48,411 bases of DNA from a virus: IMG/VR virus record IMGVR_UViG_3300023184_003118, positions 1 to 48,411 of that record; one strand, 5' to 3'. The position numbers and the translations under genes are program-made. The first letter of the stretch is position 1. Every line of letters begins with the position of its first letter. The notes under the pieces were generated by a model, which did no database searches, had not been told where the DNA came from, and saw only the letters and a list, made by a program, of their open reading frames with translations. Positions 25,198 to 48,411 of this stretch are shown here, one piece after another.

Positions 25198-25201
25198 AAC
25201 T

Positions 25202-26059
25202 TTAGATTAGCTCTTTTATTTCATCAATAGTAAACTCAGTAACTTCATTTGAATATGGGCCTTCTTCTAAAACCTTTTCATGCAAGTTTTCGCCTGGCTG
25301 CAGTCCTATTACTCTAACAGCAATTTCTTTTCCATTGCTGTACTTTTCGATCATAGCTTGTAGTAAGTTATTGATACTCATAGATTTCATAGAAGGGCAG
25401 TAAGGGGTTGAATCTTTTGAATTCTTCATACAATCAACAATAAGATCGATTGCCTGTTCTACACTCCAGAAAAACCTTGTTGCAGATGGCTCAGTTACGA
25501 TGACTCCTTTTCCCTGTTCGATTAACTCTTTCCACTTACACAAAACAGACCCAGTTGAATATAGTACGTTTCCGTACCTAACTACCCTGTACTTACATTT
25601 AGTATTTATTTTCTCGAACTGGCTTATTAATCTTTCCATCAAAAATTTAGATGCTCCGTATACACCCGATACTTGCGCTGCCTTATCCGTGGAAATTGCT
25701 AATACAAATTCTAAGTCAAGTACTAAGGACTCCTCTAAAATATTCAAAGATCCTAATGTATTTGTTTTTACATTTTCTCTTACAAACGTTTCTGCCAACC
25801 CTACATGTTTAGATGCAGCTAAATGAAATACGCCATTAACGCCTTTCATTGCTTGTCGTACTTCAAATTTATCTGCAATATCTCCTGTGTAAATTTCTAC
25901 ACTAGGATATTTTTCTTTTAATTCTATTAATTTACCTTCATCCCGAGACATTACTCTTACCTCTGCACCCTGTGAAAGTATATAGCTAACTAAAGGTATA
26001 CCTAGGAATCCGGTGCCGCCTGTTACTAAATACTTATTACCTTGTATTAAATTTATCAT
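25202..26059 (-). CDS. CapD/FnlA-like nucleotide-sugar epimerase or dehydratase
   Basis: A 285-residue extended SDR: GGTGFLG (14-20), FHLAASKHV, AISTDKAAQ and the YxxxK motif VYGASKFLMERL. The STDKA and RYGNVLYSTGSV stretches are typical of the polysaccharide biosynthesis CapD family, which makes 4,6-dehydrated or C5-epimerised UDP-GlcNAc products. It lacks the N-terminal membrane domain of long CapD proteins. It ends the higher-GC block and supplies unusual sugars to the transferases. Confidence 0.85.
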   Translation of the reverse strand: MINLIQGNKYLVTGGTGFLGIPLVSYILSQGAEVRVMSRDEGKLIELKEKYPSVEIYTGDIADKFEVRQAMKGVNGVFHLAASKHVGLAETFVRENVKTNTLGSLNILEESLVLDLEFVLAISTDKAAQVSGVYGASKFLMERLISQFEKINTKCKYRVVRYGNVLYSTGSVLCKWKELIEQGKGVIVTEPSATRFFWSVEQAIDLIVDCMKNSKDSTPYCPSMKSMSINNLLQAMIEKYSNGKEIAVRVIGLQPGENLHEKVLEEGPYSNEVTEFTIDEIKELI

Positions 26060-26064
26060 TTTTA

Positions 26065-26922
26065 TTATTTATTAAATTGTGTTATCATTCCGAACTCATT
26101 GAATATAGGCATTTCTTTCCATTTATCCAACCATTTCATGGAATTTTTTTGTTCTGCATCTCGTTGTCTTTGAGATGACTGCCCGTCATTTTCTTCTAAT
26201 CTATGCGAACCTCTTGCTCCAAAGTGCCATACTATAGATGAAAATGGAAGTACAAATCTTACTCCATGATTTAACATTCTTAAGAATAAATCCATATCAT
26301 CCCAAGAGGTTGGAGCAAATCTAGGATCATTGCCTCCTACTTCATCCCATACAGATTTCTTAACTAAACCTGATACTCCTTCTCCTTTAGGAATTTCAAA
26401 ATAATCATTAATTTTTTTAAATTCATCTACAAATTCTTCAAACTCAGAGGCATTAAAATTATAATAGTATCCTCCAAATGCTTCAGGATCTATTAATAAA
26501 GTTCCATGTCTTTGTGGAGAGTTAAACATATTAGGTTCTATTCTATAAGAATTCACCCATAACTTTTCGGTAGGTCTTGATTGATGAATTTTTAATAATT
26601 CCAAGTCCCAATCTTTAGTTACATAAAAATCTGAATGAAGAAAATTAATATATTCAGTCTCTACTTTATCTGCACAAAAATTCATACCGCCTCCTATTCC
26701 TTTAGGAGAATTAGTATGAACATCTATATAATATGTAAAATTGTAAATTGGAGCATTTTCTTCTAACCATTCATTAGTACCGTCTGTGCAATTTTCTGCA
26801 TGAATTATAAAAGGAGCATCTTTATAAAAAGAGTTTTTCCTTACTGATTCTATTGCTAACTTTAAGTATGGTAGGTTATTGTAGGTAGAAATACAATGAG
26901 TTAAGGGACTAGAGTGTATCAT
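26065..26922 (-). CDS. Family 2 glycosyltransferase
   Basis: Preferred start is ATG at 26922 (MIHSSPLTHCISTYNNLPYL), 285 residues, leaving a 14-base overlap; an ATG at 26952 would overlap by 44. GT-A features are a strand then AIESVRKNSFYKDAPFIIHA, NFLHSDFYVTKDWD (DxD-like HSDF) and PTSWDDMDLFLRMLNHGVRF, which is the ED-like acceptor/base region. A further segment IVWHFGARGSHR fits the C-terminal loop of GT2. Confidence 0.8.
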   Translation of the reverse strand: MIHSSPLTHCISTYNNLPYLKLAIESVRKNSFYKDAPFIIHAENCTDGTNEWLEENAPIYNFTYYIDVHTNSPKGIGGGMNFCADKVETEYINFLHSDFYVTKDWDLELLKIHQSRPTEKLWVNSYRIEPNMFNSPQRHGTLLIDPEAFGGYYYNFNASEFEEFVDEFKKINDYFEIPKGEGVSGLVKKSVWDEVGGNDPRFAPTSWDDMDLFLRMLNHGVRFVLPFSSIVWHFGARGSHRLEENDGQSSQRQRDAEQKNSMKWLDKWKEMPIFNEFGMITQFNK

Positions 26923-27544
26923 AATAGTTGTTTTGTTTTTCTTGTCTATCAATTGTTTTTGGATGATATAGACAGAATTCTTCTTCTGCAGGAAGTAATG
27001 TTACTGATTGGAATCCTTCAAGCACTTCATGAACTTTGTTTTTCCATTTTATGCTAGTATCATTTTTGTAAATTCTCCATTGATAGTCTGGAAAGTTTAT
27101 CCATCCTTTTTCATCTACATTCCATCGCCATTTTTGTATATGATGAGGCGTTAATCCTTCTACAGTATTTACTCTTGGTACTCGAAATACATCTACTTCT
27201 TGATTGATTTCTAGAATATAAGGAAGTCCTTTAATAAGTTCTTCATTTGGAAGTTCATCTGCATCTATTTGAAAAATATAATTTCCTGAACAATTTGCCA
27301 TTAAATTATTTTTAAATGCAGCAAAGTCATTGTTCAATGAACAGCTAACAAATTTAATCTTTCTATCAAATATTAATTCATTAAGATAATTTTGTACTGC
27401 TACTGTATACATTGAAGGATTAGTCAATTCATCTTGTTGAACTACTATCTCATCTTGGTCTCGTTTATTCGCTATGAGAAAAGAGACCAACTTCTTGATC
27501 TCTTCTATCTCATTGCATACTGTTATCGCGTAACTAATTTTCAA
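26909..27544 (-). CDS. Family 2 glycosyltransferase (WaaE-like)
   Basis: A 211-residue protein opening MKISYAITVCNEIEEIKKLV, with QIDADELPNEEL (DAD metal site) and YQWRIYKNDTSIKWKNKVHE, very close to the order in LPS core beta-glucosyltransferases of the WaaE type. Small but complete for this subgroup. Donor unknown; cytoplasmic or peripheral membrane. Confidence 0.85.
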   Translation of the reverse strand: MKISYAITVCNEIEEIKKLVSFLIANKRDQDEIVVQQDELTNPSMYTVAVQNYLNELIFDRKIKFVSCSLNNDFAAFKNNLMANCSGNYIFQIDADELPNEELIKGLPYILEINQEVDVFRVPRVNTVEGLTPHHIQKWRWNVDEKGWINFPDYQWRIYKNDTSIKWKNKVHEVLEGFQSVTLLPAEEEFCLYHPKTIDRQEKQNNYYDTL

Positions 27545-28868
27545 TTTTGTCTATTTTATTTAATTTAGGCAATTCTATCTTTTTCAATTGAGGCAACTCA
27601 ATTTTCTTTAATTGAGGTAATTTCAATTGAACTTGTTTTGGAAAGTCCGGAAGTCTAGAATCTAAAATAGCTCCTGCCTTTTCAGTCATAGCTTCAAAAG
27701 AAAAATTAGTTTTAATATGATGATAAGTCTTTCTAGATTTTTCTAAATACTTTTTATAATCTTTGTGCATGTCTTTCATAAAAGCAGACGCTTGATCATA
27801 ATTTATAGTGAACCATTCTGCATCTAAATTTAACACTCCTTGCCAAGCTGCTGAAGGATGAACCTTAGTCATTTTACCGTCGACTAATATAGTTGATTCA
27901 GGTTTAAGGAAATCTAAATGACCAGACCAACCTGAAGCTATAATTGGCTTACCTGTCACAGCTGCTTCAATTAAAGGCCTTCCAAATCCTTCTCCTTTCG
28001 TAAATGAAATATGAGCTTTTACTTTAGGATGATTATATAAATCATTTATTTCTTCTTGTGTAAAATCTCCATACGCAATATATACATTAGGAAGGTTTTT
28101 ACTATCTATAGTAGATTTAATAAAATCTATTTTATTTTGCAATTCTATTCTGTCAGATATTGAAACTGTACCTCCTGAAGTCTTTAATACAAGCGCCGGC
28201 GCTTTAGATTTATTTTTAAAAGATTCATAGAAAGTTTTAATCATCCCACTTACATTTTTTCTATCTTCTCCTAAATCTCCTGGTAACCAATGACCAACAA
28301 ATAGAAAACAAAAATCTTCAGGAATTTGATCAAAGATTTCAGCTACATTAGCTTGCCCCGTATATTTCTTTTGAAAAGTATCTAATCTAATTCCTTCAAA
28401 TAAAACTTCTACTGGAGTTTGTAATTTTAGTGAAGCTACAATTTGACCAGTATTACCATCTTTTTTATCAAAGACAGTTCCTTCGAATACTGATTTAGCG
28501 TGCTCTGAAGAGGCTAATACTAAATCCATTCTATTACATCCTTCTAACCAAGTATGGTCACATAAATTAGTTTCAATACCGGCAGTAACTCCTATATTAT
28601 ATTTTCCAACTTTTTGAAATTCGCTAGGAACTGTTACTTGCATATAAATTTCTGGTTGTTGGTTCAAAGGTCCTACTAAAATTCTATCAAGAATATCAGT
28701 GTCTAATTCTGTCAATGCATTCATTGGAGTACCTCCCCAACGAGTACTTACTATTTTAATGTCAAACTTATCTAATGCAATAAGAGCTCTAACTAAATCA
28801 CGGGATCTTTCTCCGTAACCTGAGCGAGTACCTACTGGAGCTTGAAATACTAATACTGGTTTACTCAT
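27534..28868 (-). CDS. GT4 glycosyltransferase with repeated C-terminal tail
   Basis: A 444-residue GT-B enzyme. The donor domain is clear: FLFVGHWLPGDLGEDRKNVS, then FTKGEGFGRPLIEAAVTGKP with the E-x7-E catalytic motif. The last 35 residues are an unusual tandem LPQLKKIELPQLKKIELPKL that looks like a leucine/lysine amphipathic repeat and may bind membrane or another protein. Sits upstream (5') of three GT2 genes. Confidence 0.85.
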   Translation of the reverse strand: MSKPVLVFQAPVGTRSGYGERSRDLVRALIALDKFDIKIVSTRWGGTPMNALTELDTDILDRILVGPLNQQPEIYMQVTVPSEFQKVGKYNIGVTAGIETNLCDHTWLEGCNRMDLVLASSEHAKSVFEGTVFDKKDGNTGQIVASLKLQTPVEVLFEGIRLDTFQKKYTGQANVAEIFDQIPEDFCFLFVGHWLPGDLGEDRKNVSGMIKTFYESFKNKSKAPALVLKTSGGTVSISDRIELQNKIDFIKSTIDSKNLPNVYIAYGDFTQEEINDLYNHPKVKAHISFTKGEGFGRPLIEAAVTGKPIIASGWSGHLDFLKPESTILVDGKMTKVHPSAAWQGVLNLDAEWFTINYDQASAFMKDMHKDYKKYLEKSRKTYHHIKTNFSFEAMTEKAGAILDSRLPDFPKQVQLKLPQLKKIELPQLKKIELPKLNKIDKIEN

Positions 28869-28870
28869 AA

Positions 28871-30253
28871 CTATACTTTTATAAATTCTGTTCGTTTTCT
28901 AGGTTTCCAATTTGTAAAACATGTATTAATATGTTCTATTACATTGTTACCCATTGATTCTGCTGATAATCCAACTTCAGGTTTTAAATAATGCTCTCTA
29001 CCTAATTGACCTACTCGCTCTCTTTCTTCATGGGAAGTATCATACCATTCTTTAAATTTTAATGCAGTGTCTTCATAAGACGCAATGTCATCAAAGATGT
29101 ATGGAGTAGGTACAGACCCTTGAAGAGTTCTTACTGCTGGGAAAGTAGGTTTAGCCCATTCTCCACACTCTTTATATCTTCCTTCTGCGTTGGTCTGAAA
29201 CTCATCACAATAATCATCTGCCGTTAAATAAGTGCCGTCTTCTTTCTTGAATCCACATTGATCTTGAAGACCTCCAGTTACATTAACTACGATAGGAGTA
29301 CCGGCCATTACGGCCTCTGCAGTACCTAATCCAAATCCTTCATTGGAAGCAATATTAGCAGAAATGTCAGCCATATTATAAAGGAAATTTAATTCTTTAG
29401 TTGATATAACTCTAGAAGGTGTGAATTTTACTTTATACATTGGACAAAGCTCTTTGATAACTGCTAGTAAATCTGTACCAGCTTCTTCAATCGGCTCTGT
29501 ATGGAATAGCAATAAACATTTGTCTGACTTTTCTTTTGGCAAAGAATCACAGAATGTTTTATAAGCTAAAATTAAATCTGAAGTATGTTTTCTTCTTATA
29601 TTTCTAGCATTGTGGAATATTGTAAATTCAGTTTCTGTTGGAATTATGTTTGCTTTATATTCTATAAACTCATTCCATTGTTCATGCGTTTCATTTATTG
29701 GAAAGAATTGTTTATGATTAATACCGTGTGGAGTATAAGTAATTTGCCAATCTTCATAACCAGCGTCACTTAATACTTGTTTAACGATATTGTGAGTTTG
29801 TTTTGAAATGCACATTAACAAATCACATGATTCGTAATATGGTCTATTGTATCTAGGATATGGAGTATCATCCCAAATAGTGTAATACATCAATGGCATC
29901 ATTTGACGCAATTCATGCTCCATTGCATATAACCAACCCCAAAATCTAGGATCTGTAAAATGTAATACAGCATCTGGCTTTTCAATTTGTATTAATTCTC
30001 TTAATACTTCTTGATTTCCATAATCATTGAAACAATAAATTTTTACGCTTGCGTCTTCAACTCCTGCATGAGCTGCAGTGTCTGTAGATAAATCAAATAC
30101 CTTTCCAGCATCAGGATGATTAATTCCTGCACCTAATTGTACCCAATCAAATTCTTTTACAGAGTTTAAGACAATTTCACGGGACATAGTTGCAATTCCT
30201 GAATGCATACGTAAGTCATCCGATAGTAGTAGTATCTTTTTCTTTTTTGACAT
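28871..30253 (-). CDS. GT4-like glycosyltransferase
   Basis: A 460-residue GT-B enzyme. KKILLLSDDLRMHSGIATMS starts the acceptor domain; FTIFHNARNIRRKHTSDLIL and ADISANIASNEGFGLGTAEA mark the donor domain with its E-x7-E site. It is the first gene of the glycan locus, following tandem repeats and a promoter-like element at 30254-30316. Donor and acceptor unknown. Confidence 0.8.
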   Translation of the reverse strand: MSKKKKILLLSDDLRMHSGIATMSREIVLNSVKEFDWVQLGAGINHPDAGKVFDLSTDTAAHAGVEDASVKIYCFNDYGNQEVLRELIQIEKPDAVLHFTDPRFWGWLYAMEHELRQMMPLMYYTIWDDTPYPRYNRPYYESCDLLMCISKQTHNIVKQVLSDAGYEDWQITYTPHGINHKQFFPINETHEQWNEFIEYKANIIPTETEFTIFHNARNIRRKHTSDLILAYKTFCDSLPKEKSDKCLLLFHTEPIEEAGTDLLAVIKELCPMYKVKFTPSRVISTKELNFLYNMADISANIASNEGFGLGTAEAVMAGTPIVVNVTGGLQDQCGFKKEDGTYLTADDYCDEFQTNAEGRYKECGEWAKPTFPAVRTLQGSVPTPYIFDDIASYEDTALKFKEWYDTSHEERERVGQLGREHYLKPEVGLSAESMGNNVIEHINTCFTNWKPRKRTEFIKV

Positions 30254-30473: not shown

Positions 30474-30935
30474 TTAAGATTTTTCATTTATGATAACAAC
30501 AGGCTTTGAATGTTTTTGTGCCATTGTTACGGCATGATACGAACCTTTAGATGCTACATTAGAATCTATGAAGGCAATCATCTTATCACAATACTTTGCA
30601 ATCAATTCATTTCTATGAAAGAATTGAGTAGTGTGAAAAGGCTTACTGTAATATGAATCCGGCATTACTGAATACAAATTCTTTACAGAATGTGCAGGAT
30701 TGAATTCTCTATAATTAACTCCTAGCTCGATAGAATACTTTTTAGCATACTTATCAGCTCCTGAAGGGCAACCTCCTGATATAATTTCCAATTTATCTCC
30801 AAACGTTTGTTTAAGTTTGAAAATCATATCTCTTATTTTTCTTTTATTCTCGTATTCTCTAGACCCAATAATTGCAATTTTGATTCTGTCTGGGTCTGAA
30901 TTTAATGAATTCATGACTTTATACTTGTTTATCAT
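30474..30935 (-). CDS. SLOG-type Rossmann protein (YspA/DUF2493-like)
   Basis: A 153-residue protein with KIAIIGSREYENKRKIRDMI, EIISGGCPSGADKYAKKYSI and VVIINEK, the pattern of SLOG nucleotide-binding proteins (YspA/DprA-like). These bind nucleotide signals or ADP-ribose-type ligands and occur in phages and in defence islands. The start overlaps the nuclease gene by four bases. Function in phage replication unknown. Confidence 0.75.
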   Translation of the reverse strand: MINKYKVMNSLNSDPDRIKIAIIGSREYENKRKIRDMIFKLKQTFGDKLEIISGGCPSGADKYAKKYSIELGVNYREFNPAHSVKNLYSVMPDSYYSKPFHTTQFFHRNELIAKYCDKMIAFIDSNVASKGSYHAVTMAQKHSKPVVIINEKS

Positions 30936-35878: not shown

Positions 35879-37495
<1,617 letters not shown>

Positions 37496-37499: not shown

Positions 37500-38753
37500 T
37501 TATTTTGTTTTTAGTAATTTTTGTTCTTTTTTAAGTTTTTTTAGATCCACTGCATCAAATACTGAATAGTCAAAGAATTCAGTTGCAACTTCTTTTGCAA
37601 TATTCATTACATTCTCTCCGCCATACTTAACATAAAATTGACGATATCTTTCATATACTGCAATTGGATCTGGAGAATTAAACATTTCTTCCATAGATCT
37701 CAATACTTGAATTAAGTCATTTGGAATAATATCAACCATTGCTTCTAAAGGGCAAGTATCAATTAATTTTTCAACATTGTCTACAGTATAGATATACATA
37801 TGCAAATTGTGATATGTCGCTCTAGTTACTGCTTCAGTTGACCAATTTTTAGCAATGTCATAAGTAAAATAAGGAACACCAGGATGATTAACTAAAGAAG
37901 GCAAATGCCCATGATCAGGATAACCCATATTAGAACCATCTTTTGGAAAATACAACATATTAAATACTTGATCTTTCCAATTAGGACTCCACACCATTTG
38001 TCCAAAGATTGGATATTGACCTGGAGAAGAAGAATCTGTTGAGATAGTAATTCTGTTACCTGTATACTGATTCATTAACTTTTGCAAATAAGCTAACACG
38101 AAAAAGTCTGATACTTTTGAAATACCTAATAAGTGAATCCAAGTATTATTTTCTTTCAAAAACTCTTTCTCTTTAATCATCAAAGATAAGATGTACATGA
38201 AGTCTACTAATCTTCTAGAAGATCCAATACACCAACCTCCAAATTCTAATCCTTTAACTGTATTGTACCAATGTTTAAATTCTTGTGGATTTGAACCTTG
38301 CACTACATTTAAGAAATTAGTCTTACCAGATTGTTTCTTTTCAAAGTATTTGAAGTTGTCTAAACTCATATCTAAACACTCTTGAAATCTTCCTTCGTAA
38401 GTAACACGAGGCGGAATATCTATATTACACGCAATATCTGAATTAGCTTCTAACCATTCAAATATTTTATCACGTAATGCCATATCCCATTTTAAGGCTC
38501 CAGTTGCAATTTGGAATCCTCCGGAGTCACCAAATACCAAAGTATCTTGCAAGCCCCACTTTTGTCGGATATCTTCTTTTTTGTATAAGTGACCTGCTGT
38601 CATAAGGAAATACTTATAACGCCACTCTTCAGGCACTCTATCATCCCAAAATCTATATGGAACTCCTGGAGCTACCTCTGCGTCTTTAGTCAAAGGCGAT
38701 GCATAAGCTCCACTCGATAGAGACGGGAAATAAACTAACTTTTTTTCTTTCAT
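37500..38753 (-). CDS. dpdA: TGT/DpdA-like 7-deazaguanine transglycosylase
   Basis: A 417-residue TIM-barrel of the tRNA-guanine transglycosylase superfamily. Motifs in order are FGDSGGF (D76), NIDIPP (D112), VVQGS (150-154), GGWCIGSS (172-179), LLGISK (208-213) and TISTDSSS (D240 at the nucleophile position). TGT nucleophile, base-binding and acid residues thus all have counterparts. The zinc motif of tRNA TGT (CxCxxC...H) is absent. This combination fits phage DpdA, which exchanges guanine for a 7-deazaguanine in DNA. Adjacent GroEL, a glycosyltransferase and a QueD-like gene, and FolE/QueE in the same window, support this. It could still act on RNA. Confidence 0.8.
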   Translation of the reverse strand: MKEKKLVYFPSLSSGAYASPLTKDAEVAPGVPYRFWDDRVPEEWRYKYFLMTAGHLYKKEDIRQKWGLQDTLVFGDSGGFQIATGALKWDMALRDKIFEWLEANSDIACNIDIPPRVTYEGRFQECLDMSLDNFKYFEKKQSGKTNFLNVVQGSNPQEFKHWYNTVKGLEFGGWCIGSSRRLVDFMYILSLMIKEKEFLKENNTWIHLLGISKVSDFFVLAYLQKLMNQYTGNRITISTDSSSPGQYPIFGQMVWSPNWKDQVFNMLYFPKDGSNMGYPDHGHLPSLVNHPGVPYFTYDIAKNWSTEAVTRATYHNLHMYIYTVDNVEKLIDTCPLEAMVDIIPNDLIQVLRSMEEMFNSPDPIAVYERYRQFYVKYGGENVMNIAKEVATEFFDYSVFDAVDLKKLKKEQKLLKTK

Positions 38754-38771
38754 ATTCTAAATATATAATTT

Positions 38772-39776
38772 TCAATTGGAATTTCCAAATATTTGCTCAA
38801 TTATTTTTTCTGAGTCGTAATGATTTTCAAATAAATGTTCTAACTGGTTATTAATTAATGGCACATACATTGTATAATTGTCTGTCAAATCTTTTATCTT
38901 TGAAGTCAAATCAGGCGCGTATTTACTATAATTAAAAATTGTGTCTGTCCATTCTGGAGGATATCTAAATTCCATTGGAACAAAATCTCTTAATCCTTCT
39001 AAATCTGGAACTAAAGGAATGGTACCTAACAATAGACATTCATAAATTTCAGTTCCTATATTAGGATAGTCATATGGTAAAAATGCAACTTTTGCTTTTT
39101 GAATTTGAGTCAAAAGCTGATGTCTTTCCAAAGGACTTTTTTCTTGAGCAAATATAATTTGCATATTCTTAAACACTCTTACAAAGTCGTACATAATTTG
39201 TTCTTGAAGTGGAGTATATGAATTCCACGGAAAGATAATCATGTCCTGTTTGTAATGTTTGTTTTTGTACAAAGCCATTTCCAATTCTAAATAATCTAAC
39301 GGAAATGGAATCACTCCTAGCCTATCAGGAAATACAAACTTAGATACATAAATTCTAAACTGCTCTTTGAAATAATCTGAAATAAAAAATGATTTGTCTA
39401 AACATCTAAAAGATGCTCTTTCAACTACCTTTCTCCAATCTCTATTGCCTACAGGTCTAAATTTTTTGTCATTATTGATAAAACATCCTCTTGACCACAT
39501 TCCAATTGTTTCAACCGGTATGTTATAACATTCAGACCAATGTTTAATATAAGTTGTCGAATATGTCCAAGCGTTTGGAAATATAAATTTATCATTAGAC
39601 TGTATGGTTTTGTTTGTAAATAAGGCTTTGATCTCAGACAAGTCGGATATGTCCTTAATTGCATAAGTGTCTAATTTATTAGCTTCTATATACCCTTGAA
39701 GAATAGACGCTAAATGAGTCTCCCATGAATTAGGTTCAGTTATTAAATTATCTGTTATAACATAAATGGTAATCAT
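38772..39776 (-). CDS. GT-B glycosyltransferase
   Basis: A 334-residue GT-B-like protein with KVAFLPYDYPNIGTEIYECL (E-x-x-E donor site) and FPWNSYTPLQEQIMYDFVRV at the start of the donor domain. The N-terminal half has GMWSRGCFINNDKKF and DRLGVIPFPLDYLELE. It sits directly downstream of the QueD-like gene and overlaps its start by four bases, and it precedes the TGT-like gene, so a role in modified-base glycosylation is possible. Sugar unknown. Confidence 0.75.
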   Translation of the reverse strand: MITIYVITDNLITEPNSWETHLASILQGYIEANKLDTYAIKDISDLSEIKALFTNKTIQSNDKFIFPNAWTYSTTYIKHWSECYNIPVETIGMWSRGCFINNDKKFRPVGNRDWRKVVERASFRCLDKSFFISDYFKEQFRIYVSKFVFPDRLGVIPFPLDYLELEMALYKNKHYKQDMIIFPWNSYTPLQEQIMYDFVRVFKNMQIIFAQEKSPLERHQLLTQIQKAKVAFLPYDYPNIGTEIYECLLLGTIPLVPDLEGLRDFVPMEFRYPPEWTDTIFNYSKYAPDLTSKIKDLTDNYTMYVPLINNQLEHLFENHYDSEKIIEQIFGNSN

Positions 39777-40129
39777 AATCCTTCTACTATCGCGCCATTT
39801 TCTTCATCTTCCCAAACTTCAACCCATTTACAATCAAATTGATTGAAAAGTTCTCTTCCTAACATTTCACAGGACATTGAACCAAATTCATGAGTTCGAG
39901 TTGTTGCGTCATAATACTTATCAGAAAGATATGCTAACACATCTCTTTTAAACATTATAAATTCTACATCTCTGTCATCATGATATACTTTTTTGCATAC
40001 TTTAAAGTGAAACATATGTCTATGTCTATCAGATAAAAAAGCTACCTCTGGAAATAATTCCTTAGCAGCAGGGAAGTTGTGGCAAGCGTCTATAGACAAT
40101 TTTACTATTACAGCTGTCGTTGTTTTCAT
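39773..40129 (-). CDS. 6-PTPS/QueD-like protein, catalytic residues apparently lost
   Basis: A 118-residue protein of the 6-pyruvoyl-tetrahydropterin synthase fold. The zinc ligands H17 (DACHNFP) and H36, H38 (DRHRHMF) are present, and WVEVWEDEENG (E107) matches the base-binding Glu. The catalytic Cys expected four residues before the HxH is L32, and the D-H of the triad appears as D70-K71. So the pterin/purine pocket may be kept without the usual chemistry. It lies between PolB and a glycosyltransferase, separate from the FolE/QueE pair. A genuine QueD seems to end at the right edge. Confidence 0.75.
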   Translation of the reverse strand: MKTTTAVIVKLSIDACHNFPAAKELFPEVAFLSDRHRHMFHFKVCKKVYHDDRDVEFIMFKRDVLAYLSDKYYDATTRTHEFGSMSCEMLGRELFNQFDCKWVEVWEDEENGAIVEGL

Positions 40130-40138
40130 AATTTAATT

Positions 40139-42706
40139 TTAGAAGCTGAAGAAATCAGCCATATTATCATTTTTAGGAATTCTACCATAACTCAAAGCAT
40201 CATAAAATCCTTGAAGCTTATTTTCTAAAGACGCAGTGAATATTCTATCATAGTCTATATACTGAGTTACGAATTTAAGTATTTCTTCTGGATCGTCAAA
40301 TCCTTTAACAGCACAAGTATCTAATCCAAAAGGATTATTTTTCAAATAAGTCCACTTAATCTTTTCACCATCTGTGATTGGCTGTGATAATGAAATCTTA
40401 TAGTAAGTCATTAAATCATTATAATTCAAAGCTGACTTTGCGTGTATTGGAGTTCCTTTAACTCTATCTCCAAACATTTGACCTTTGGCTTTTTTAGTCT
40501 TGTATTTTTTCAATTCCTTTACTCCGGTCGGAAACATAATATCAAACATAGGTTTATGCTTCATTTCTTCTCGAAATGCTAACACCTTATCATCAATTTT
40601 CTTTTGAGGAGATATATTTAAAATATCAATTAAAATACCAGACATAAATTCTCTAAATGCTTTTGGGAAATTCGATCTTACAACATCCATTCCTTTTACA
40701 TCTAGTTTCCATTCTTTAGCTCCATTAGTCATTTCAGAGATTAGAACTCCTTTCTCTGAAATAATTTTTTGAGCATAACGTTTCTTTGCAATCCATAACC
40801 CAGACTCTGCTACATATTCTTGTTTAATAGATAAAAAGTGTTTAGTAGAGTTTAAGATATTTAAACAAAATGCATCCCAAGACTCATTAATATACTTTTC
40901 AACTACCTGAGAAGTTTTATAAGTTATATCAATCTTTTCTTGTTTAGTCATTTCTTTACCCATTTTCGATTCCATTAAATCAATTATAGGCTTAGCAGAG
41001 AAGTAATTTGAATCTGTATCCACATAAATTACATACTCTTTATCAACTCCAGTTTGTTTAGTAAACCATTCATTACCTTTGAACATCGCGTGCTTGATAA
41101 CCTGCTGTCCTGTTAGTGTGATAGACTCTGCGTTATCCAAATCATGGAATCTAAAACCTGGAGCTCCTAATGCACCATACAAAGAGTTATTTACAATCTT
41201 CATAGTATGCTGTCTAGAGTCAAAGAATTTAGACATATCAGCGTCTCCTTCTTTACCATATTTTTTGGCTAGAGCTCTATATTCTTCTCTTTCATTCATC
41301 CAAGTTTCAAGAATAGAAGGGATCAATCCATTTCTAGAATAATCATACACTACTCCAATTGAAGATACTGTAAATTTATTCTCGACTAAATAATCTCTGA
41401 ATTCATTTATTGGAATTAGCGAATGTCTTGCACCTGCTTTAATTTTTGCACTTGTAGTGTCATTTGTATTATTCCAAAAAGACTCTTTTACTGAATCCCA
41501 ATTTTCAATTCTACCTACTTTAGTCTCTGGAGATATATTTAAAGTTCTAATAATAGAAGGATATAGAGATGCCATATCTTCGTCAAATACCCATTCATAC
41601 ACACCTGGAATTGGATCTTTCACATAAGCTCCTGCAAAGTCATTTTCATGACCATCTTCTTCTGTTACCTGTGAGTGGTCTTTTAGTTTTCTATCCGGAG
41701 CAACTATTCCTAATCGCTTCATATAAGTCACACAAGCTCCATCTAGATATCTTGTAGTGAAATAAACATCTTCATAAGGCACATGGCCTTTGTGACAGAT
41801 ACCTCGGGCCAAAGATAAAAACTTAAGCTTCTCGTCTAACTCTAAAACTAAAGTAACGTCATTTACGTTATACTCTACAAACTTTTCAGGATCTGTTTTA
41901 TATAAATGATCTAGGTTTCCTTCATACTCAATCTTACCTTTACCTAATTCTTTTTTACAAATATTGTCTAGAGAATATGAAGACTCTTCTGAGTAAGTAA
42001 ATAGCTTATACAATGCCATGTAATCTAAACAAGACACTCCCATTATTCTATATCTGTTTCTATGAGGAAGATAAATTACTTCATTGATAGGAGATAAAGT
42101 GTTTGCATATTCCTTTCCAGCTACTTGCGAAATTCTATTATACAAATATGGAATATCAAAATAATCAATGTTCCATCCTGTTATAATAGTTGGATTGATT
42201 TCCATATAGTAAGTAAGAAATTTAGATATAAGTTCATATTCTGTTTGAACTACTTCTAAAATTAAATCTTTATCTGTATATGGTTTTAAGGCTCCGTCTT
42301 TATCTACAATAATTGCCACAGATTGCTTTGCAGTTCTATCATGAAATGCAATTGAAGTCATTGGTTGCCAAGCTTCTTCTGCTGAAGAAAATCCACCTTC
42401 TGTCGAAACCTCAATATCGATAAACATCTCTCTGTGACCTATTGAAGGATCATCCGTTTCAAAATATAAATCGATTAAAGTTCTTGTTTCTGGGTTGATG
42501 TCAGATTCATAAATTTGACCTCTCTGTAAATCAGAGTCATCCCACTTTGTAACCTTTTCTAATTTAGAACCATCAAGTGCCACAAACTTTCCATGAGCAG
42601 ACTTTTTATAAGCATACTTCTTGAATGGAAATTGCATATGACCCTTTTTGTCGTCCCAAACGTGAATTAAATTTTTATTCTTTTGATATGCTATATTTTG
42701 ATACAT
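40139..42706 (-). CDS. Family B DNA polymerase (T4 gp43-like)
   Basis: An 855-residue polymerase with a 3'-5' exonuclease domain (ExoI FIDIEV, D97/E99; ExoII GWNIDYFDIPYL, 177-188; ExoIII YNVNDVTLVLEL, 279-290) and polymerase motifs A (FDEDMASLYPSII, 374-386), B (KIVNNSLYGALG, 503-514) and C (YVDTDSNYF, 561-569, D563/D565). Length is close to T4 gp43 (898). All catalytic residues are intact. It copies the phage genome with the clamp and clamp loader. Start overlaps the next gene by one base. Confidence 0.97.
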   Translation of the reverse strand: MYQNIAYQKNKNLIHVWDDKKGHMQFPFKKYAYKKSAHGKFVALDGSKLEKVTKWDDSDLQRGQIYESDINPETRTLIDLYFETDDPSIGHREMFIDIEVSTEGGFSSAEEAWQPMTSIAFHDRTAKQSVAIIVDKDGALKPYTDKDLILEVVQTEYELISKFLTYYMEINPTIITGWNIDYFDIPYLYNRISQVAGKEYANTLSPINEVIYLPHRNRYRIMGVSCLDYMALYKLFTYSEESSYSLDNICKKELGKGKIEYEGNLDHLYKTDPEKFVEYNVNDVTLVLELDEKLKFLSLARGICHKGHVPYEDVYFTTRYLDGACVTYMKRLGIVAPDRKLKDHSQVTEEDGHENDFAGAYVKDPIPGVYEWVFDEDMASLYPSIIRTLNISPETKVGRIENWDSVKESFWNNTNDTTSAKIKAGARHSLIPINEFRDYLVENKFTVSSIGVVYDYSRNGLIPSILETWMNEREEYRALAKKYGKEGDADMSKFFDSRQHTMKIVNNSLYGALGAPGFRFHDLDNAESITLTGQQVIKHAMFKGNEWFTKQTGVDKEYVIYVDTDSNYFSAKPIIDLMESKMGKEMTKQEKIDITYKTSQVVEKYINESWDAFCLNILNSTKHFLSIKQEYVAESGLWIAKKRYAQKIISEKGVLISEMTNGAKEWKLDVKGMDVVRSNFPKAFREFMSGILIDILNISPQKKIDDKVLAFREEMKHKPMFDIMFPTGVKELKKYKTKKAKGQMFGDRVKGTPIHAKSALNYNDLMTYYKISLSQPITDGEKIKWTYLKNNPFGLDTCAVKGFDDPEEILKFVTQYIDYDRIFTASLENKLQGFYDALSYGRIPKNDNMADFFSF

Positions 42707-43707
42707 TAATTTTCTTTTATGATGTCAATCATCGTTTGTGCATTGTTATCCCATTTTTCTGTCCAAGACATTGGAACTACTAAACCACCTTCATTGAATT
42801 TTGCTTCAATTTCATCTACTGAATTATAAACATTTTTAGCAGGTACCATTTCAGGACAACATGCTCTATTTGGAACTAAAATTTCACAACCGAAATAAAT
42901 TGCTTCTTGAATAGTGTAACCAAACGTTTCTTGATAAGCTGTCGACAAGTACCATTTTGCTCTTCTCATTAAATCAAAATACTCTGCTTTCGTTAATGAA
43001 TGTCTATACTCGATGTTTTTAGGAAGCTTACCTAAATCTTTTGCTGGACCTGAAGAAGTAATAATAATTTTCTTTTTTGTGTTTTTTGCAAACTCAATCA
43101 ATTCAGCAATTCCTTTTTCTTCAGAAAACCTATGAGGCCAAATAACAAAATCTTCTTTATCTCCGTCGTTTGGAAATTGCTTCATGTATTCTAAGTCCCA
43201 TACCAATCCTGTTCTATGTACAGTTACTGGATTAAGACCGAAATGGTCACATACATTATATGCGTGATCTAAACTTCCTACAAAGATTCCATCACAGATA
43301 AAGTGATATCCTGCTTCTGAAGCATCTGCCCAATAAGATAATTGCTGCACAAAGTCTGTCTTATCAGCTCTACCTGCATAATTAATTCCAAATACTTTTA
43401 CATCCATACCTTGAAGTTCGGACATATATTTAATCATTTCAATTCCTGGGAAGAATATATCTCCGATTAAAAATGAATCTCCATTTTCTACGTTGCCTTC
43501 ATTAAATAAATCTGCAACCATTTGAAGTTGTGCTGCTTTGAATTTACATGTATTGACAATGTCTAGAAATTGACCTCTTTTAATTTCAGTATCAATTTCA
43601 ATTTTAGGATATAAAGAGATATCTACTTTTGGATAGATAGCTGCATTCATCATACCTGTATACCTTTGTGGTAATTCTTCTAAAGGAAGATAAATAATTT
43701 TACTCAT
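42706..43707 (-). CDS. GT-B glycosyltransferase (GT4-like)
   Basis: A 333-residue protein with donor-domain features VIWPHRFSEEKGIAELIEFA, then KAKWYLSTAYQETFGYTIQE with E-x7-E. N-terminal half includes GDIFFPGIEMIKYMSELQGM and FICDGIFVGSLDHAYN. It begins right before PolB and has its own promoter-like motif (43722-43745). Because it is placed between FolE and the DpdA-like gene, it might act on the modified base. Confidence 0.8.
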   Translation of the reverse strand: MSKIIYLPLEELPQRYTGMMNAAIYPKVDISLYPKIEIDTEIKRGQFLDIVNTCKFKAAQLQMVADLFNEGNVENGDSFLIGDIFFPGIEMIKYMSELQGMDVKVFGINYAGRADKTDFVQQLSYWADASEAGYHFICDGIFVGSLDHAYNVCDHFGLNPVTVHRTGLVWDLEYMKQFPNDGDKEDFVIWPHRFSEEKGIAELIEFAKNTKKKIIITSSGPAKDLGKLPKNIEYRHSLTKAEYFDLMRRAKWYLSTAYQETFGYTIQEAIYFGCEILVPNRACCPEMVPAKNVYNSVDEIEAKFNEGGLVVPMSWTEKWDNNAQTMIDIIKEN

Positions 43708-43721
43708 AAACTTAATTTTTA

Positions 43722-43745
43722 TTTAATATAAGGAATTCTATTGAA
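43722..43745 (-). promoter_or_regulatory. Putative phage promoter motif
   Basis: The minus strand reads CAATAGAATTCCTTATATTA followed by AATAAA, about 15 bases before the ATG at 43707. The first bases overlap the stop codon of the upstream gene. Fits the AAT-n-CTTATATTA consensus of the other leaders and would start the GT-PolB transcript. Confidence 0.5.
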
Positions 43746-45132
43746 AAAAACTAGATAAAGCATCTAAAGGATTTTCAATTTCTTTATGCTCTAAATTTCC
43801 ATTGTCGTCTGGAATTCCTAAATACGTTTCGTGATTTGTTTGTTTGATTTGATACCAAGCTATATTTACATAAATGGTTTCAATATCTGAAGTTAGATAC
43901 ATTACTCCTTTGGCATTTTCTGTTTGAAAATATTTAGCGAGATCTATCCAAGTTCCTTTATTCTCTTGTAGATAAGTGTATAATCTATTTCGTGGCTCTT
44001 TACCTCTACCCATTATAGGTCCGTCTAGTAAACCTAATAAAGATTGTTTATAAGAGTTTTGATAATCTGTAAACTCTTTTAAAATTACATCTTCTGCAAT
44101 AGGCTTTGCATTGTAAGACGCAAATACAGTCTCTGCTATATTTTTAGAATCAGCTACAATGAAATTGGAAAATCCTTTGAAGTTGTAATGCCAGTCATAT
44201 TTGTCTAACACAATGGTAGGCATATATCTTAAGGCTTCTAACACTGCAATTCCAAATGATTCATTTTTATAAGGCATGAATGCTACCTTTGACTTTTGAA
44301 TTATTTGAGCTTTTTCTTCTCCTACTACATCAGCCACAATTTCGAAATTGGTATGACCTATAGAAGCAAAGTCAGCTTCAAACTTTTTAACGTGTGCTTG
44401 ACGCGTCATTACATTAGCCTTTATTTCAATGCCAAACTTCTCTTTTATGTCTGCCAGACACTTGATATAAGCGGCCGGATTCTTACGGTCTTCATGACGT
44501 CCTATATAAAGTAACCCATCCCTCTCTTTGATATTTACAGCGTTCGCATCTGTTAATGGATAAAGCTGTACATAAAGGTTAGGTTTAGGAAATGGAAGTA
44601 AAGGAAGTATCTTTTCTTTATTTTGTTCAGTCTGAATTAGCGTTGTAATTGGAAAGTACATCATGTGCTCTATTAAATTGTAATAGCAGTCTTTGAATAC
44701 TCCAGCTCCTAATTCAGGGTTGATTGAAGCACATTCATGAGCGTATGAAGTTACATGTATATGTTTATAAAGTTCCATTTGGTAACATACAAAAGCTGAT
44801 TCTGTATCATTACAAATTATTAAATCATATACATTATTTGCTAGCGCTTTGGTAATTGCAGATCGAAAGTTAATTGCTTTTTCAAAATTAAAGCTATCTG
44901 CAAATTGAAACAAATTAGAATGTTTTGAATATGCTAATCTGTCTTGTTTGTCTGGAAATATAAAATTAATAGGATAGTCCTTTAAGAAGTTTTCGTCAGG
45001 TTCCCCGTCAGACAGAACATCTATAAAGTGACCATTCTCTAGAAATGTGTCTATAGCTCCTTTCATGAAAATTCCGTGCCCTGAAGAGGGACGGAAGTTC
45101 ATCTTGTTGATTATAAATAAAACTCTTTTCAT
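43738..45132 (-). CDS. GT-B glycosyltransferase (GT4-like)
   Basis: A 464-residue protein starting MKRVLFIINKMNFRPSSGHG. The donor domain has GLLYIGRHEDRKNPAAYIKC and KVAFMPYKNESFGIAVLEAL (E-x7-E). A C-terminal extension of about 110 residues (LYTYLQENKGTWIDLAKYFQ onwards) is not seen in ordinary GT4 enzymes. It is just upstream of another GT-B gene and PolB. Confidence 0.8.
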   Translation of the reverse strand: MKRVLFIINKMNFRPSSGHGIFMKGAIDTFLENGHFIDVLSDGEPDENFLKDYPINFIFPDKQDRLAYSKHSNLFQFADSFNFEKAINFRSAITKALANNVYDLIICNDTESAFVCYQMELYKHIHVTSYAHECASINPELGAGVFKDCYYNLIEHMMYFPITTLIQTEQNKEKILPLLPFPKPNLYVQLYPLTDANAVNIKERDGLLYIGRHEDRKNPAAYIKCLADIKEKFGIEIKANVMTRQAHVKKFEADFASIGHTNFEIVADVVGEEKAQIIQKSKVAFMPYKNESFGIAVLEALRYMPTIVLDKYDWHYNFKGFSNFIVADSKNIAETVFASYNAKPIAEDVILKEFTDYQNSYKQSLLGLLDGPIMGRGKEPRNRLYTYLQENKGTWIDLAKYFQTENAKGVMYLTSDIETIYVNIAWYQIKQTNHETYLGIPDDNGNLEHKEIENPLDALSSFFQ

Positions 45133-45133
45133 A

Positions 45134-45155
45134 AATTAATTGGGCCAGTCTCGTG
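45134..45155. repeat. Inverted repeat, left arm
   Basis: AATTAATTGGGCCAGTCTCG here is matched in reverse by GAGACTGGCCGTCAATTAAT at 45587-45607 (core GGCCAGTCTC/GAGACTGGCC, with a small indel beside the AATTAATT part). The arms bracket gene 45161-45568. Confidence 0.75.
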
Positions 45156-45160
45156 TTATA

Positions 45161-45568
45161 TTATCCTTTAATTACTTGTTTGGCACCTAAGGTACCTGTT
45201 AATTTCTGCTCTAACTTATCTACTCGAGAGTCAATAGTACTATAAATTTCACTAATTTCACTACTAATTGTCCTATCGATTCCGTCAGCGCGGTTACTTA
45301 AATCTCGATGAGCTTCTTCAAGATTTTTACTTGAGTCTCTGTGCAACTCGTCGCACATTTTGTTAGTTCTATCAATCTCTCTATCTATTCGAAGATTGGT
45401 TTGTATATCTCTTTCAGATATTTCCTTATAAGCACCTTCAATTGAATGTTCATGGTCTATTAAAGACGATTCTAATTTTGATACTCTTTTAGCTAATCCA
45501 GACACAAACACAATGCTTAAAATTAAAAGCACTGCACCTACCCCTGAAAGAAAATAAATTGTTTCCAT
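45161..45568 (-). CDS. Membrane-anchored coiled-coil protein between inverted repeats
   Basis: The preferred start is ATG at 45568 (METIYFLSGVGAVLLILSIV), giving 135 residues with one N-terminal membrane helix (about 2-24) and a long charged coiled coil after that (KRVSKLESSLIDHEHSIEG onwards). The upstream ATG at 45601 lies within the repeat arm and is less likely. Layout could fit an i-spanin, a membrane tether or a replication anchor. It interrupts the FolE-glycosyltransferase order. Confidence 0.7.
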   Translation of the reverse strand: METIYFLSGVGAVLLILSIVFVSGLAKRVSKLESSLIDHEHSIEGAYKEISERDIQTNLRIDREIDRTNKMCDELHRDSSKNLEEAHRDLSNRADGIDRTISSEISEIYSTIDSRVDKLEQKLTGTLGAKQVIKG

Positions 45569-45586
45569 ATTGTTTAAATTATTAAT

Positions 45587-45607
45587 GAGACTGGCCGTCA
45601 ATTAATT
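45587..45607. repeat. Inverted repeat, right arm
   Basis: The reverse complement matches 45134-45155. It also contains the last codons of FolE (stop at 45602-45604). Both arms would pair in a transcript, closing a large loop around the gene. Confidence 0.75.
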
Positions 45608-46240
45608 ATTTTTAAGTGTATCAACGAATCTATAAAATTCGTTTCTTGCTGCAGGATCTTCTAAAAAGGCACCTGACATTTTTGAAGTCATCATTGTCGA
45701 GTCATGTCTTACTCCTCTAACACAAGCACACATATGGTTCGCTGCTATCATAACAGAAACACCTTTATTACCTTCACAAACTTCATTGATATAATCATGA
45801 ATTTGCATAGTTAAGTTTTCTTGCACCTGAGGTCTTCGAGCAAAGTACTCTACAATTCTATTTAATTTTGACAATCCAATTACTTTACCATCTGAAGAAG
45901 GAATGTAAGCTACGTGAGCATATCCTACAAAAGGTAAATGGTGATGAGAGCAAAATGATTTAACATCAATATTTCCTTGAAACACTACTCCATCATAACC
46001 ATCTAAATTGTCAAATGCAGTGATTCTAGGGGCATCTGCATAACATCCTTGAGCTAAATCATTAACAAACGCTTTTGCTACTCTTCTAGGAGTATCTGAA
46101 GAGTTTGGGTCATTCTCCCAATCAATTCCTAACGCTGTCATGTATTTGCCATAATGTTCAGCAGCATGCTCAATCATAGCTAATTTTTCTTTTTCAGTTC
46201 TAGGACTAGAAGAATTTGCATATTTTAATAGTTCTTTCAT
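45602..46240 (-). CDS. folE: GTP cyclohydrolase I (FolE)
   Basis: A 212-residue enzyme with zinc ligands C97 and H100 in SFCSHHHLPFVG and C171 in HMCACVRGVRH. Also the conserved GLSKLNRIVEYFARRPQVQE. It converts GTP to 7,8-dihydroneopterin triphosphate, the first step of 7-deazaguanine synthesis (and of folate). In a phage with QueE and a DpdA-like enzyme the deazaguanine route is the likely purpose. It follows GroES by one base. Confidence 0.95.
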   Translation of the reverse strand: MKELLKYANSSSPRTEKEKLAMIEHAAEHYGKYMTALGIDWENDPNSSDTPRRVAKAFVNDLAQGCYADAPRITAFDNLDGYDGVVFQGNIDVKSFCSHHHLPFVGYAHVAYIPSSDGKVIGLSKLNRIVEYFARRPQVQENLTMQIHDYINEVCEGNKGVSVMIAANHMCACVRGVRHDSTMMTSKMSGAFLEDPAARNEFYRFVDTLKNN

Positions 46241-46241
46241 A

Positions 46242-46583
46242 TTAAAAAGGTAAGTCTAAATCTAATTGAGAATCTTCATCTAAAATACCTAACAATTCAG
46301 ACTCTCTGTATAATTGATATTCTAGTTTATTTAGTTTCATTGTTTGAGCTTGTCCATAAGGAGGTAATACAACTTCATCTCCTATCTTAACTGACATAGG
46401 AATAAGTGAACCGTTTTGAGTATACAACCCAGGCCCCACTGCTACTACCTTACCCATTTTTACATCCTCTGAAGATACAGTCTCAGGAATTATGATTCCA
46501 GAAGTTGTTCTTTTTTCTTCTTTTGATTTGTATTCTTTTACTAGAACTCTGTCGCCTAACGGTCTTAATTTTTTATTTTCCAT
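46242..46583 (-). CDS. groES: Phage GroES co-chaperonin
   Basis: A 113-residue GroES with RPLGDRVLVKEYKSKEEKRT, SGIIIPETVS, GKVVAVGPG and the mobile-loop region followed by GDEVVLPPYGQ. A C-terminal extension of about 15 residues (ESELLGILDEDSQLDLDLPF) exceeds the usual length of about 97. It would cap the phage GroEL encoded 9 kb downstream. Located between QueE and FolE rather than beside GroEL. Confidence 0.93.
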   Translation of the reverse strand: MENKKLRPLGDRVLVKEYKSKEEKRTTSGIIIPETVSSEDVKMGKVVAVGPGLYTQNGSLIPMSVKIGDEVVLPPYGQAQTMKLNKLEYQLYRESELLGILDEDSQLDLDLPF

Positions 46584-46585
46584 GT

Positions 46586-46795
46586 TTATTTAATTGAATA
46601 TTTTGTTTTTCCGTCTAATGACTCTGCTTTTATTAAATCTTTAGTAATGTTTACTAATTTCATATCATGATGTCTTTTTAATATTTCTATCAATTCAACA
46701 CGAGTAAGACGCTTATTTTGCCATAATGTATGCAAAGCTCTTAACATTTCAAATTCAGTCGATTTTGCTATCACTGTGTTATTATTTTGCTGCAA
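46586..46795 (-). CDS. Small hypothetical protein
   Basis: A 69-residue helical protein (FEMLRALHTLWQNKRLTRVE, ILKRHHDMKLVNITKDLIKA) that may hold a winged-helix-like fold. It overlaps the end of the preceding gene by 14 bases and ends two bases before GroES. Function unknown. Confidence 0.6.
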   Translation of the reverse strand: MQQNNNTVIAKSTEFEMLRALHTLWQNKRLTRVELIEILKRHHDMKLVNITKDLIKAESLDGKTKYSIK

Positions 46796-47372
46796 ATCTT
46801 AACATACATCCCCTAAAAGCTTCCGGCATATAATCTTCTGGGTTTGTTAAAACTTTTTCAAGTTTATCACGAAGAGATTGTTTCATTACTTCATCTTGAT
46901 CTTCTTTACTATCTATATCTTGTGGAAAGGTAGGATTGAAGGTAAGTGTGATTGATCTTGAAGGTTCAAAATTTTCAGGATTGTATAGTAGTGGTCCAAA
47001 TGTACATCCATCCTTTACTGGTGAGTGTACTGTTTTAGGATCATACATTTTAGGTGTAAAGAGAATTTGATATACATAAGCAGTCTTTCCTTCGTAAGTA
47101 GGATTTTCTTCATCATCTAATTTAATTGTTTTGGCTACAATTGCCTCTTTACCATCTTCAGTCATTCCCGCTGGTATTTCCATCCAAAGTACTTTTTTTA
47201 CTTTAAAATGATCTATTACTAACTGCTCTACTTGTACCTTCTGTTCGTCAGTTAGTGCTGTTACGTCATAGCCTCCTGCTGCTGCTCCCATGTTTAATCC
47301 TCCAAAAGCAAGTCGCTCATCCGTAACTGGACCTACAATGTCCATTACTCTTTTTGTAATTTTATTTTCCAT
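46782..47372 (-). CDS. Hypothetical protein between QueE and FolE genes
   Basis: The preferred start is ATG at 47372 (MENKITKRVMDIVGPVTDER), giving 196 residues and avoiding overlap with QueE. Recognisable pieces are KKVLWMEIPAGMTEDGKEA and AYVYQILFTPKMYDPK. No catalytic motif is identified. Being in the deazaguanine gene cluster, it is a candidate for an unrecognised step or partner. Confidence 0.65.
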   Translation of the reverse strand: MENKITKRVMDIVGPVTDERLAFGGLNMGAAAGGYDVTALTDEQKVQVEQLVIDHFKVKKVLWMEIPAGMTEDGKEAIVAKTIKLDDEENPTYEGKTAYVYQILFTPKMYDPKTVHSPVKDGCTFGPLLYNPENFEPSRSITLTFNPTFPQDIDSKEDQDEVMKQSLRDKLEKVLTNPEDYMPEAFRGCMLRFAAK

Positions 47373-47386
47373 ATTTTTATTTTTTA

Positions 47387-48160
47387 TTAAACTTCTCTTT
47401 GGTCTTCGAATGCAATTATATGAGGTCTCCAAGTTAATCTATAACCATTATCTCTAACCCAATCAAACATTTTTGGATAGGATTTGAATAAAGCTTCTCT
47501 TGAATCTCCTGCCGGCATAAACCAAACTTTATCTTCTGGAACATCTAACATTTTGATACATCCCATAATTTCTTTCAAAGCTTCTTGATCTTCTCCATCC
47601 CATACAGGTTTTAAGTGATAGTCAGAATGATATGAAATCATTTTAGACATTGCATCATAATTAAGTCTTAACTTGTTATGTTGCTTAACCATTTTCTCAT
47701 CGACGATATCCCCTTGCGGAGTAAGTATACCTGGCCGTGGAACAGAGTTAGAAAACTTAGGACTAATGCTAAGTAGATTAATCGGAAAGTCTGTTTCCAA
47801 GTAATGTGATCCCTCTGTTTCAATAGTAATAAAAATTCCTCTGTCATGTGCTAAATGTGTTAGTTCATTTACTAATGCTGGATGCATGGTTGGCGAGCCT
47901 CCTGTAAGCATCATCTCTTTGATGTGCGGATTTGCATCATACATGTTAATAATGTCTTGGAAACTAACATGACCTTTTTCAGGGTGAATAGAAGTGTACC
48001 AAGAATCACACCAACCTCCTTCACCAAACCAACATCTGTGAGTACAGCCTGTCGTTCTAATTACTACAGTAGGATATCCTGCTCTAGATCCTTCCGACTG
48101 AACTGCTGTGTAAAGTTCTACAATAGGAAGTGTTTTGTTATAATCTTCTATTCTTTTCAT
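47387..48160 (-). CDS. queE: 7-carboxy-7-deazaguanine synthase (QueE), CX3CX7C variant
   Basis: A 257-residue radical SAM protein. YTAVQSEGSRAGYPTVVIRT and TGCTHRCWFGEGGWCDSWYT hold the cluster cysteines C39, C43 and C51, giving CX3CX7C rather than the common CX3CX2C. EMMLTGGSPTMHPALVNELT is the typical GGE-like SAM segment. QueE rearranges 6-carboxytetrahydropterin into CDG, the third step to preQ0. It lies beside the QueD fragment and two genes from FolE. Confidence 0.9.
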   Translation of the reverse strand: MKRIEDYNKTLPIVELYTAVQSEGSRAGYPTVVIRTTGCTHRCWFGEGGWCDSWYTSIHPEKGHVSFQDIINMYDANPHIKEMMLTGGSPTMHPALVNELTHLAHDRGIFITIETEGSHYLETDFPINLLSISPKFSNSVPRPGILTPQGDIVDEKMVKQHNKLRLNYDAMSKMISYHSDYHLKPVWDGEDQEALKEIMGCIKMLDVPEDKVWFMPAGDSREALFKSYPKMFDWVRDNGYRLTWRPHIIAFEDQREV

Positions 48161-48303
48161 TATTTTGCTCCTCTAGATTTGTAATGGTCTGCTTTGGAAA
48201 ATTTAGAAGAAGACTCTTCTTTTTTAGGAACAAAAGCTTTCTTAAGACTAGGCAACCATGCCATTAATTGTTCGTAATTTGATTTTGCCGAATTCTTACT
48301 CAT
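48160..48303 (-). CDS. Small basic hypothetical protein
   Basis: A 47-residue gene (MSKNSAKSNYEQLMAWLPSL) with a Lys/Ser-rich second half (KKAFVPKKEESSSKFSKADH). Its end overlaps the QueE start as TAATG at 48158-48162. Probably real from the coupling; no function suggested. Confidence 0.6.
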   Translation of the reverse strand: MSKNSAKSNYEQLMAWLPSLKKAFVPKKEESSSKFSKADHYKSRGAK

Positions 48304-48326
48304 GTAATTTATATTTAGTTATTTGT

Positions 48327-48411
48327 TTATCCTCGATATGAATTGCATATCTGATATGAAGCTGCATTTCTTTCATGCTCATACACTTCTACTTTTACTG
48401 CTGACACTCTG
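48327..48411 (-). CDS. C-terminal end of a probable QueD (6-carboxytetrahydropterin synthase), partial
   Basis: The visible last 27 residues (RVSAVKVEVYEHERNAASYQ onwards) match the C-terminal strand and Glu-containing YEH/YET segment of QueD/6-PTPS proteins. The gene continues beyond the right edge. Position directly upstream of QueE fits a queD-queE order. The call is inferred from a short fragment. Confidence 0.5.
   Translation of the reverse strand, partial: RVSAVKVEVYEHERNAASYQICNSYRG

Follow-up and report, generated by a model that had tools for sequence, protein, structure and literature searches.

A candidate QueC-independent 7-deazaguanine DNA-modification module with a linked glycosyltransferase in a T4-type phage

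Which modified base might be made by a phage that encodes FolE, QueD, QueE and a transglycosylase among its replication genes, and no QueC? The question is raised by the viral IMG/VR record IMGVR_UViG_3300023184_003118, of which positions 1 to 48,411 were analyzed; this whole stretch of 48,411 nucleotides is henceforth called the window. An earlier note, made from the sequence alone, had proposed that FolE, QueD, QueE and QueC make preQ0 from GTP, and that a DpdA-like enzyme of the tRNA-guanine transglycosylase (TGT) type exchanges guanine in the phage DNA for a 7-deazaguanine. The results described here suggest that the system is indeed the known phage deazaguanine pathway, differing, however, in its lack of QueC and in its possession of a QueD-like protein (QDL) and a glycosyltransferase (GT), and that it may lead to an unreported, sugar-decorated deazaguanine. 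QDL and the GTs, although they accompany the TGT more constantly than any other genes, had been overlooked in the earlier note. The reading that we favor, with a probability of roughly 0.48, i.e., just short of even odds, is a module that modifies DNA with 7-deazaguanine, independently of QueC, and includes a step of glycosylation. The genes concerned are the following.

37500-38753, minus strand: TGT/DpdA-like transglycosylase, 417 amino acids
38772-39776, minus strand: GT-B-like glycosyltransferase located between QDL and the TGT, 334 amino acids
39773-40129, minus strand: QDL, QueD-fold protein without the catalytic Cys, 118 amino acids
40139-42706, minus strand: T4-type family B DNA polymerase, between the two related GTs (phrog_262, 3.2e-179)
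42706-43707, minus strand: second GT-B glycosyltransferase, of the same family as the GT at 38772, 333 amino acids
43738-45132, minus strand: further GT-B glycosyltransferase, 464 amino acids, its role in the module unproven (Pfam Glycos_transf_1, 2e-8)
45602-46240, minus strand: FolE, GTP cyclohydrolase I
47387-48160, minus strand: QueE, 7-carboxy-7-deazaguanine synthase, a radical S-adenosylmethionine enzyme
48327-48411, minus strand: C-terminal end of a canonical QueD, the gene being interrupted by the end of the contig

The synthesis genes placed in the window by the earlier note were all found to be genuine. FolE comprises a full Pfam GTP_cyclohydroI domain (E 1.6e-50), with further matches in NCBIfam (1.2e-49) and PHROG (3.6e-63), and its zinc motif, FCSHHHLPF, is readable in the sequence. 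QueE matches phrog_2076 (2e-53) and TIGR03365 (4e-15), retains the cluster cysteines as C-x3-C-x7-C, and its gene is 85% identical in DNA to its counterpart in Flavobacterium phage immuto. As for the fragment at the contig end, taken earlier as a probable QueD, all 27 of its residues are identical to the C-terminus of QueD in the near relatives L002, L093 and L095, and complete QueD genes score as PTPS/QueD (PF01242, over the cut-off) in 12 of 15 related records. The replication genes with which the block is shared, i.e., the polymerase, clamp, clamp loader subunits and a deoxynucleoside monophosphate (dNMP) kinase, are indeed of T4 type. In the direction of transcription, and leaving aside small unknown open reading frames, the order is QueD (cut), QueE, GroES, FolE, the GT at 43738-45132, the GT at 42706-43707, DNA polymerase, QDL, the GT at 38772-39776, TGT and GroEL. 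Scans of the window for promoters and terminators gave no signal above the chance level.

That the window contains no QueC, as had been remarked before, was borne out, and the suggestion that the gene may lie elsewhere in the phage genome found no support. In 48 related IMG/VR contigs of up to 465 kb, where the positive controls worked, no full-length QueC was found; the partial PP-loop matches comprised two over the cut-off, which covered only ~65 N-terminal residues, and two weaker ones. A full-length QueC was also absent from the records of 12 complete phages with QDL; among these, the cut-off was passed by a partial match in D479 but not by the match in X1. The possibility of a QueC located just beyond the window edge was rejected on the basis of the same 48 contigs. 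QDL, for its part, was not found in the QueC-bearing phages immuto, phi38:2, 2.275.O and Xhv-12; phi38:2 was considered as a QDL phage and rejected, since it carries both QueC and QueF but lacks QDL. Judged from these sequences, QDL and QueC look like alternatives, and the lack of QueC is explained as a rule of this branch, not as a gap in the contig. These findings bear on the explanation that preQ0 or a derivative of it is inserted after all, with QueC coming from the host or from a stretch of the phage genome that lies beyond the sequenced fragment. It is true that the window is a fragment, that QueC is used in 12 of the 18 literature records of related pathways, and that it is often encoded by the hosts of such phages (PMC6884629). 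Nonetheless, we regard a preQ0 product as quite unlikely, given the absence of full-length QueC from the contigs and phages above, the mutual exclusion of QDL and QueC in the phages examined, and the fact that QDL would be left without a role. Of the pathway as first proposed, the 7-deazaguanine route with a DpdA-like enzyme stands on its domains, fold, catalytic residues and synteny, whereas the part that leads to preQ0 does not, owing to the missing QueC in the relatives; in other words, sequences and models appear to support 7-deazaguanine DNA modification here, and not the preQ0 route.

QDL has no Pfam match, and comparison of its profile with PDB sequences gave PH0634 as the only hit, at an E of 0.28. 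Its AlphaFold model (pLDDT 94), in contrast, retrieved E. coli QueD as the top PDB match (E 6e-5, TM 0.70). QDL resembles the QueD/PTPS family in its fold, zinc histidines (H17, H36 and H38) and two glutamates (E88 and E107), all of which are invariant; it differs from E. coli QueD in that the position of the catalytic Cys is occupied by Leu and the Asp-His pair is also gone. Lacking these residues, it cannot perform the QueD reaction, and the idea that QDL is the phage's own QueD was discarded because the Cys is missing and a true QueD is present besides. It probably binds zinc together with a pterin- or guanine-like ligand. Given that the phage has a true QueD and that QDL turns up where QueC is missing, 7-carboxy-7-deazaguanine (CDG) would be its natural substrate, and decarboxylation of CDG is probably the simplest reaction for it. 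Cui and colleagues are said to have predicted, in 2023, a CDG decarboxylase named DpdL in QueC-less phages of the phiST type, which reportedly carry dDG or dCDG, i.e., the deoxy forms of 7-deazaguanine and CDG. QDL is probably this DpdL.

For the transglycosylase, no Pfam match was obtained, and searches of PDB sequences were likewise empty. The AlphaFold structure derived from 19 related sequences (pLDDT 78) was submitted to Foldseek, and the top ten PDB matches were all TGT or DpdA, including DpdA 7ui4, at E 7.7e-9 to 9.4e-7. Neither of the two catalytic aspartates, D76 (in DSGGFQ) and D240, varies among the 19 relatives, and both are also kept in the related proteins of phages PA5oct, ACP17, X1, Phosso and BUCT-ZZ01, in full agreement with the original description of a TGT/DpdA-like enzyme with intact catalytic residues. 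By hhalign, the match probability with the DpdA of phage 9g (DpdA1) was 0.3% alone and 53% with a combined profile, and with the enzymes of phiST, MA9V-3 and immuto (DpdA3) it was 2.4% alone and 31.5% combined. The enzyme is predicted to swap guanine in DNA for deazaguanine. It is to be noted that the fold is that of a tRNA-guanine transglycosylase, and sequence alone cannot separate DNA from tRNA as the target; the genes could, in principle, boost a queuosine-type tRNA modification in the infected host. We consider this very improbable, as the module sits among DNA-replication genes in the window and its relatives, no tRNA genes occur in the window, synthesis of preQ1 would require QueC and QueF, and the similarity to TIGR00449 is weak.

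The case for a glycosylation step comes from the company that the GT keeps. In the window, QDL, the GT at 38772-39776 and the TGT are arranged end to end, the start of the GT overlapping the stop codon of QDL. This cassette recurs, with shuffled gene order, in unrelated phages: QDL-GT-TGT of the window is TGT-GT-QDL in PA5oct and ACP17, GT-TGT-QDL in X1, and TGT-QDL-GT in BUCT-ZZ01, and in Phosso QDL and GT are together with the TGT distant. The GT was present in all 57 IMG/VR contigs that had QDL, TGT and enough flank, and exactly one GT lay between QDL and TGT in 63 of 64 contigs, the occupants of this slot belonging to several subfamilies that are less than 45% identical. To remove sampling bias, 51 loci were fetched by GT alone; pathway genes were found within 10 kb in 49 of them (QDL in 43, QueE in 35, this TGT in 32 and QueC in none), and, although many of these loci are related, the whole GT set still forms 14 clusters at 40% identity. 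The two remaining loci were one with QueE elsewhere in the contig and one 10.8-kb fragment. When 50,697 phage records were searched, the 42706 GT had 19 matches and the 38772 GT had 14, all of the latter in QDL/TGT phages. From each lineage among these matches one member was examined, and all had QueE; the base rate of FolE in the same records is 0.8% (393 records). The association of QDL, GT and TGT is tight and nearly exclusive.

The GTs of the block are not all alike. Those at 38772 and 42706 are each homologous to the single QDL-adjacent GT of PA5oct, ACP17 and Phosso, and, as the GT tree has the 42706 GT on a long branch, either of the two could be the ortholog of the single GT of other phages. 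As a GT4-like GT-B enzyme, the 42706 GT scores 28.5 bits against a cut-off of 26.4 with Pfam Glycos_transf_1 and has an intact EX7E motif; the GT of X1 reaches 45.5 bits, and the motif is present in the GTs of PA5oct, ACP17 and Phosso. The ACP17 GT had no relative among genome contigs and no match among plasmids. The GT at 43738-45132 shows little similarity to the other two. Elsewhere in the window, the minus strand carries at 16752-30253 a long succession of genes for glycosyltransferases and for nucleotide-sugar (NAD-dependent epimerase-like) enzymes, and these GTs mostly have no BLAST similarity to those of the deazaguanine block. That the 38772 GT might be a stray from this general cluster was ruled out by the phage-wide and GT-first searches.

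Taken in order, the proposed route would run as follows. FolE, QueD and QueE would convert GTP to CDG; QDL, as a zinc protein of the QueD fold, would most likely strip CDG of its carboxylate, leaving 7-deazaguanine; the DpdA-like transglycosylase would exchange guanine in the phage DNA for this base; and the GT-B enzyme or enzymes linked to QDL and the transglycosylase would transfer a sugar from a presumed donor onto the deazaguanine, before or after its insertion. The bulky, sugar-bearing base would then hide the phage DNA from host nucleases. Glycosylation of a DNA base by the GT is what we infer from linkage only, and several points weigh against it. Foremost among them, plain 7-deazaguanine has no hydroxyl on which the GT could act; the acceptor would therefore be N2, C7 or, if QDL acts otherwise, the CDG carboxylate. 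Moreover, QDL phages with a short DpdA3-type enzyme (phiST, MA9V-3, L080 and L081) have no GT, so that the route does not require it. The 38772 GT lacks the first Glu of EX7E and has no Pfam match, other GTs abound in the window, and the IMG/VR contigs do not count as independent of each other; what the analysis shows are genes, folds, residues and associations. The GT-less phages, the many other GTs and the missing hydroxyl would also fit a QueC-independent modification without sugar, in which the modified base of the DNA is left as dDG or dCDG and the GT acts on a virion protein, the cell surface or another base. We consider this rather unlikely, because the GT stays beside QDL or the TGT across several rearrangements of gene order and is nearly exclusive to the deazaguanine pathway among phages. 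With the glycosylating module as the preferred reading, the gene content of phiST and MA9V-3 suggests that this route also exists in a simpler, sugar-free form.

Sugars on 7-deazapurines are known from small molecules. In huimycin, which is made with FolE, QueD, QueE and QueC homologues, N-acetylglucosamine is carried on the 2-amino group of the 7-deazapurine, its attachment being attributed to the glycosyltransferase HuiG, and the dapiramicins likewise bear sugars on this group (PMC7439116). These pathways resemble the window in combining FolE-QueD-QueE homologues with a GT, but their products are antibiotics, a QueC homologue and a methyltransferase are used, and there is no insertion into DNA. 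Among the bases of phage DNA, cytosine has been shown to bear a carboxyl handle (PMC12783734). Among DNA modification systems, those of 9g, CAjan and immuto (Hutinet 2019, PMC6884629) share FolE, QueD, QueE and a TGT-fold enzyme near replication genes; unlike the window, they have QueC or Gat-QueC, no QDL, and no GT next to DpdA. In phiST, QDL lies beside QueD, QueE and FolE and QueC was not found, as in the window, but its DpdA3-type enzyme is short and comes with a kinase-like protein and no GT, where the window has a long TGT and GTs. The kinase-like (dNMP kinase) gene stands beside QDL and the DpdA3-type gene in phiST (L101, 8326-8805) and D479 (L107, 9546-10091), both without GT. The DNA glucosyltransferases of T4 are also phage GT-B enzymes, to which the proposed GT, as one that would mask DNA with sugar, is related by analogy; the T4 enzymes, unlike it, act on hydroxymethylcytosine. 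If the proposal is true, such phages would have, in a purine coated with sugar, a counterpart to the glucosylated cytosine of T4. The phage deazaguanines known so far bear small substituents, and a deazaguanine with a sugar would be novel both as a DNA base and in the kind of DNA glycosyltransferase that makes it. It would probably influence restriction, CRISPR and type IV nucleases, and also how such phages can be sequenced. No report of glycosylated deazaguanine in DNA was found in the open-licence literature, although an earlier description elsewhere is possible. The prediction is directly testable in cultured phages that bear the cassette, namely ACP17, the PA5oct group, X1 and Phosso. Somewhat more tentatively, we propose that certain large phages form a widespread class in which guanine is replaced by a QueC-independent, glycosylated 7-deazaguanine, and in which the GT, sometimes with sugar-oxidizing enzymes, would be swapped between lineages, varying the sugar.

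Several other genes recur near the cassette. A GFO/IDH/MocA oxidoreductase is paired with a zinc alcohol dehydrogenase close to the GT in eight GT-sampled loci, and the two recur in the window-related contigs L047 and L066-L068, examples of the pair being L142, 8233-9992, and L067, 2299-4152; this pair perhaps tailors the sugar or its donor. A phosphoribosyltransferase near QueE (L137, 2867-3415, and 20 other loci) might recycle the guanine freed by base exchange. A family of ~185 amino acids without a Pfam match often lies between TGT and QDL (L135, 8992-9528, and 22 other loci, including ACP17 at L103, 5210-5692). In Xanthomonas phage PhiXhv-12 (L113, 5621-9707), whose TGT belongs to another long family, Gat-QueC, a PIG-L type deacetylase, a more distant GT and a GFO oxidoreductase stand in a row, possibly as an aminosugar variant on a QueC-type deazaguanine. 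Apart from these, a small protein of the window (30474-30935) has similarity to phrog_289 (7.8e-16) and phrog_768 (0.0014), DprA-like and with a GTP-binding domain, possibly of a SLOG-type fold. Lastly, phage-encoded GroEL (35879-37492; phrog_5725, 4.6e-177) and GroES (46242-46583; 1.1e-18) lie on either side of the module, and phage immuto encodes both as well, side by side.

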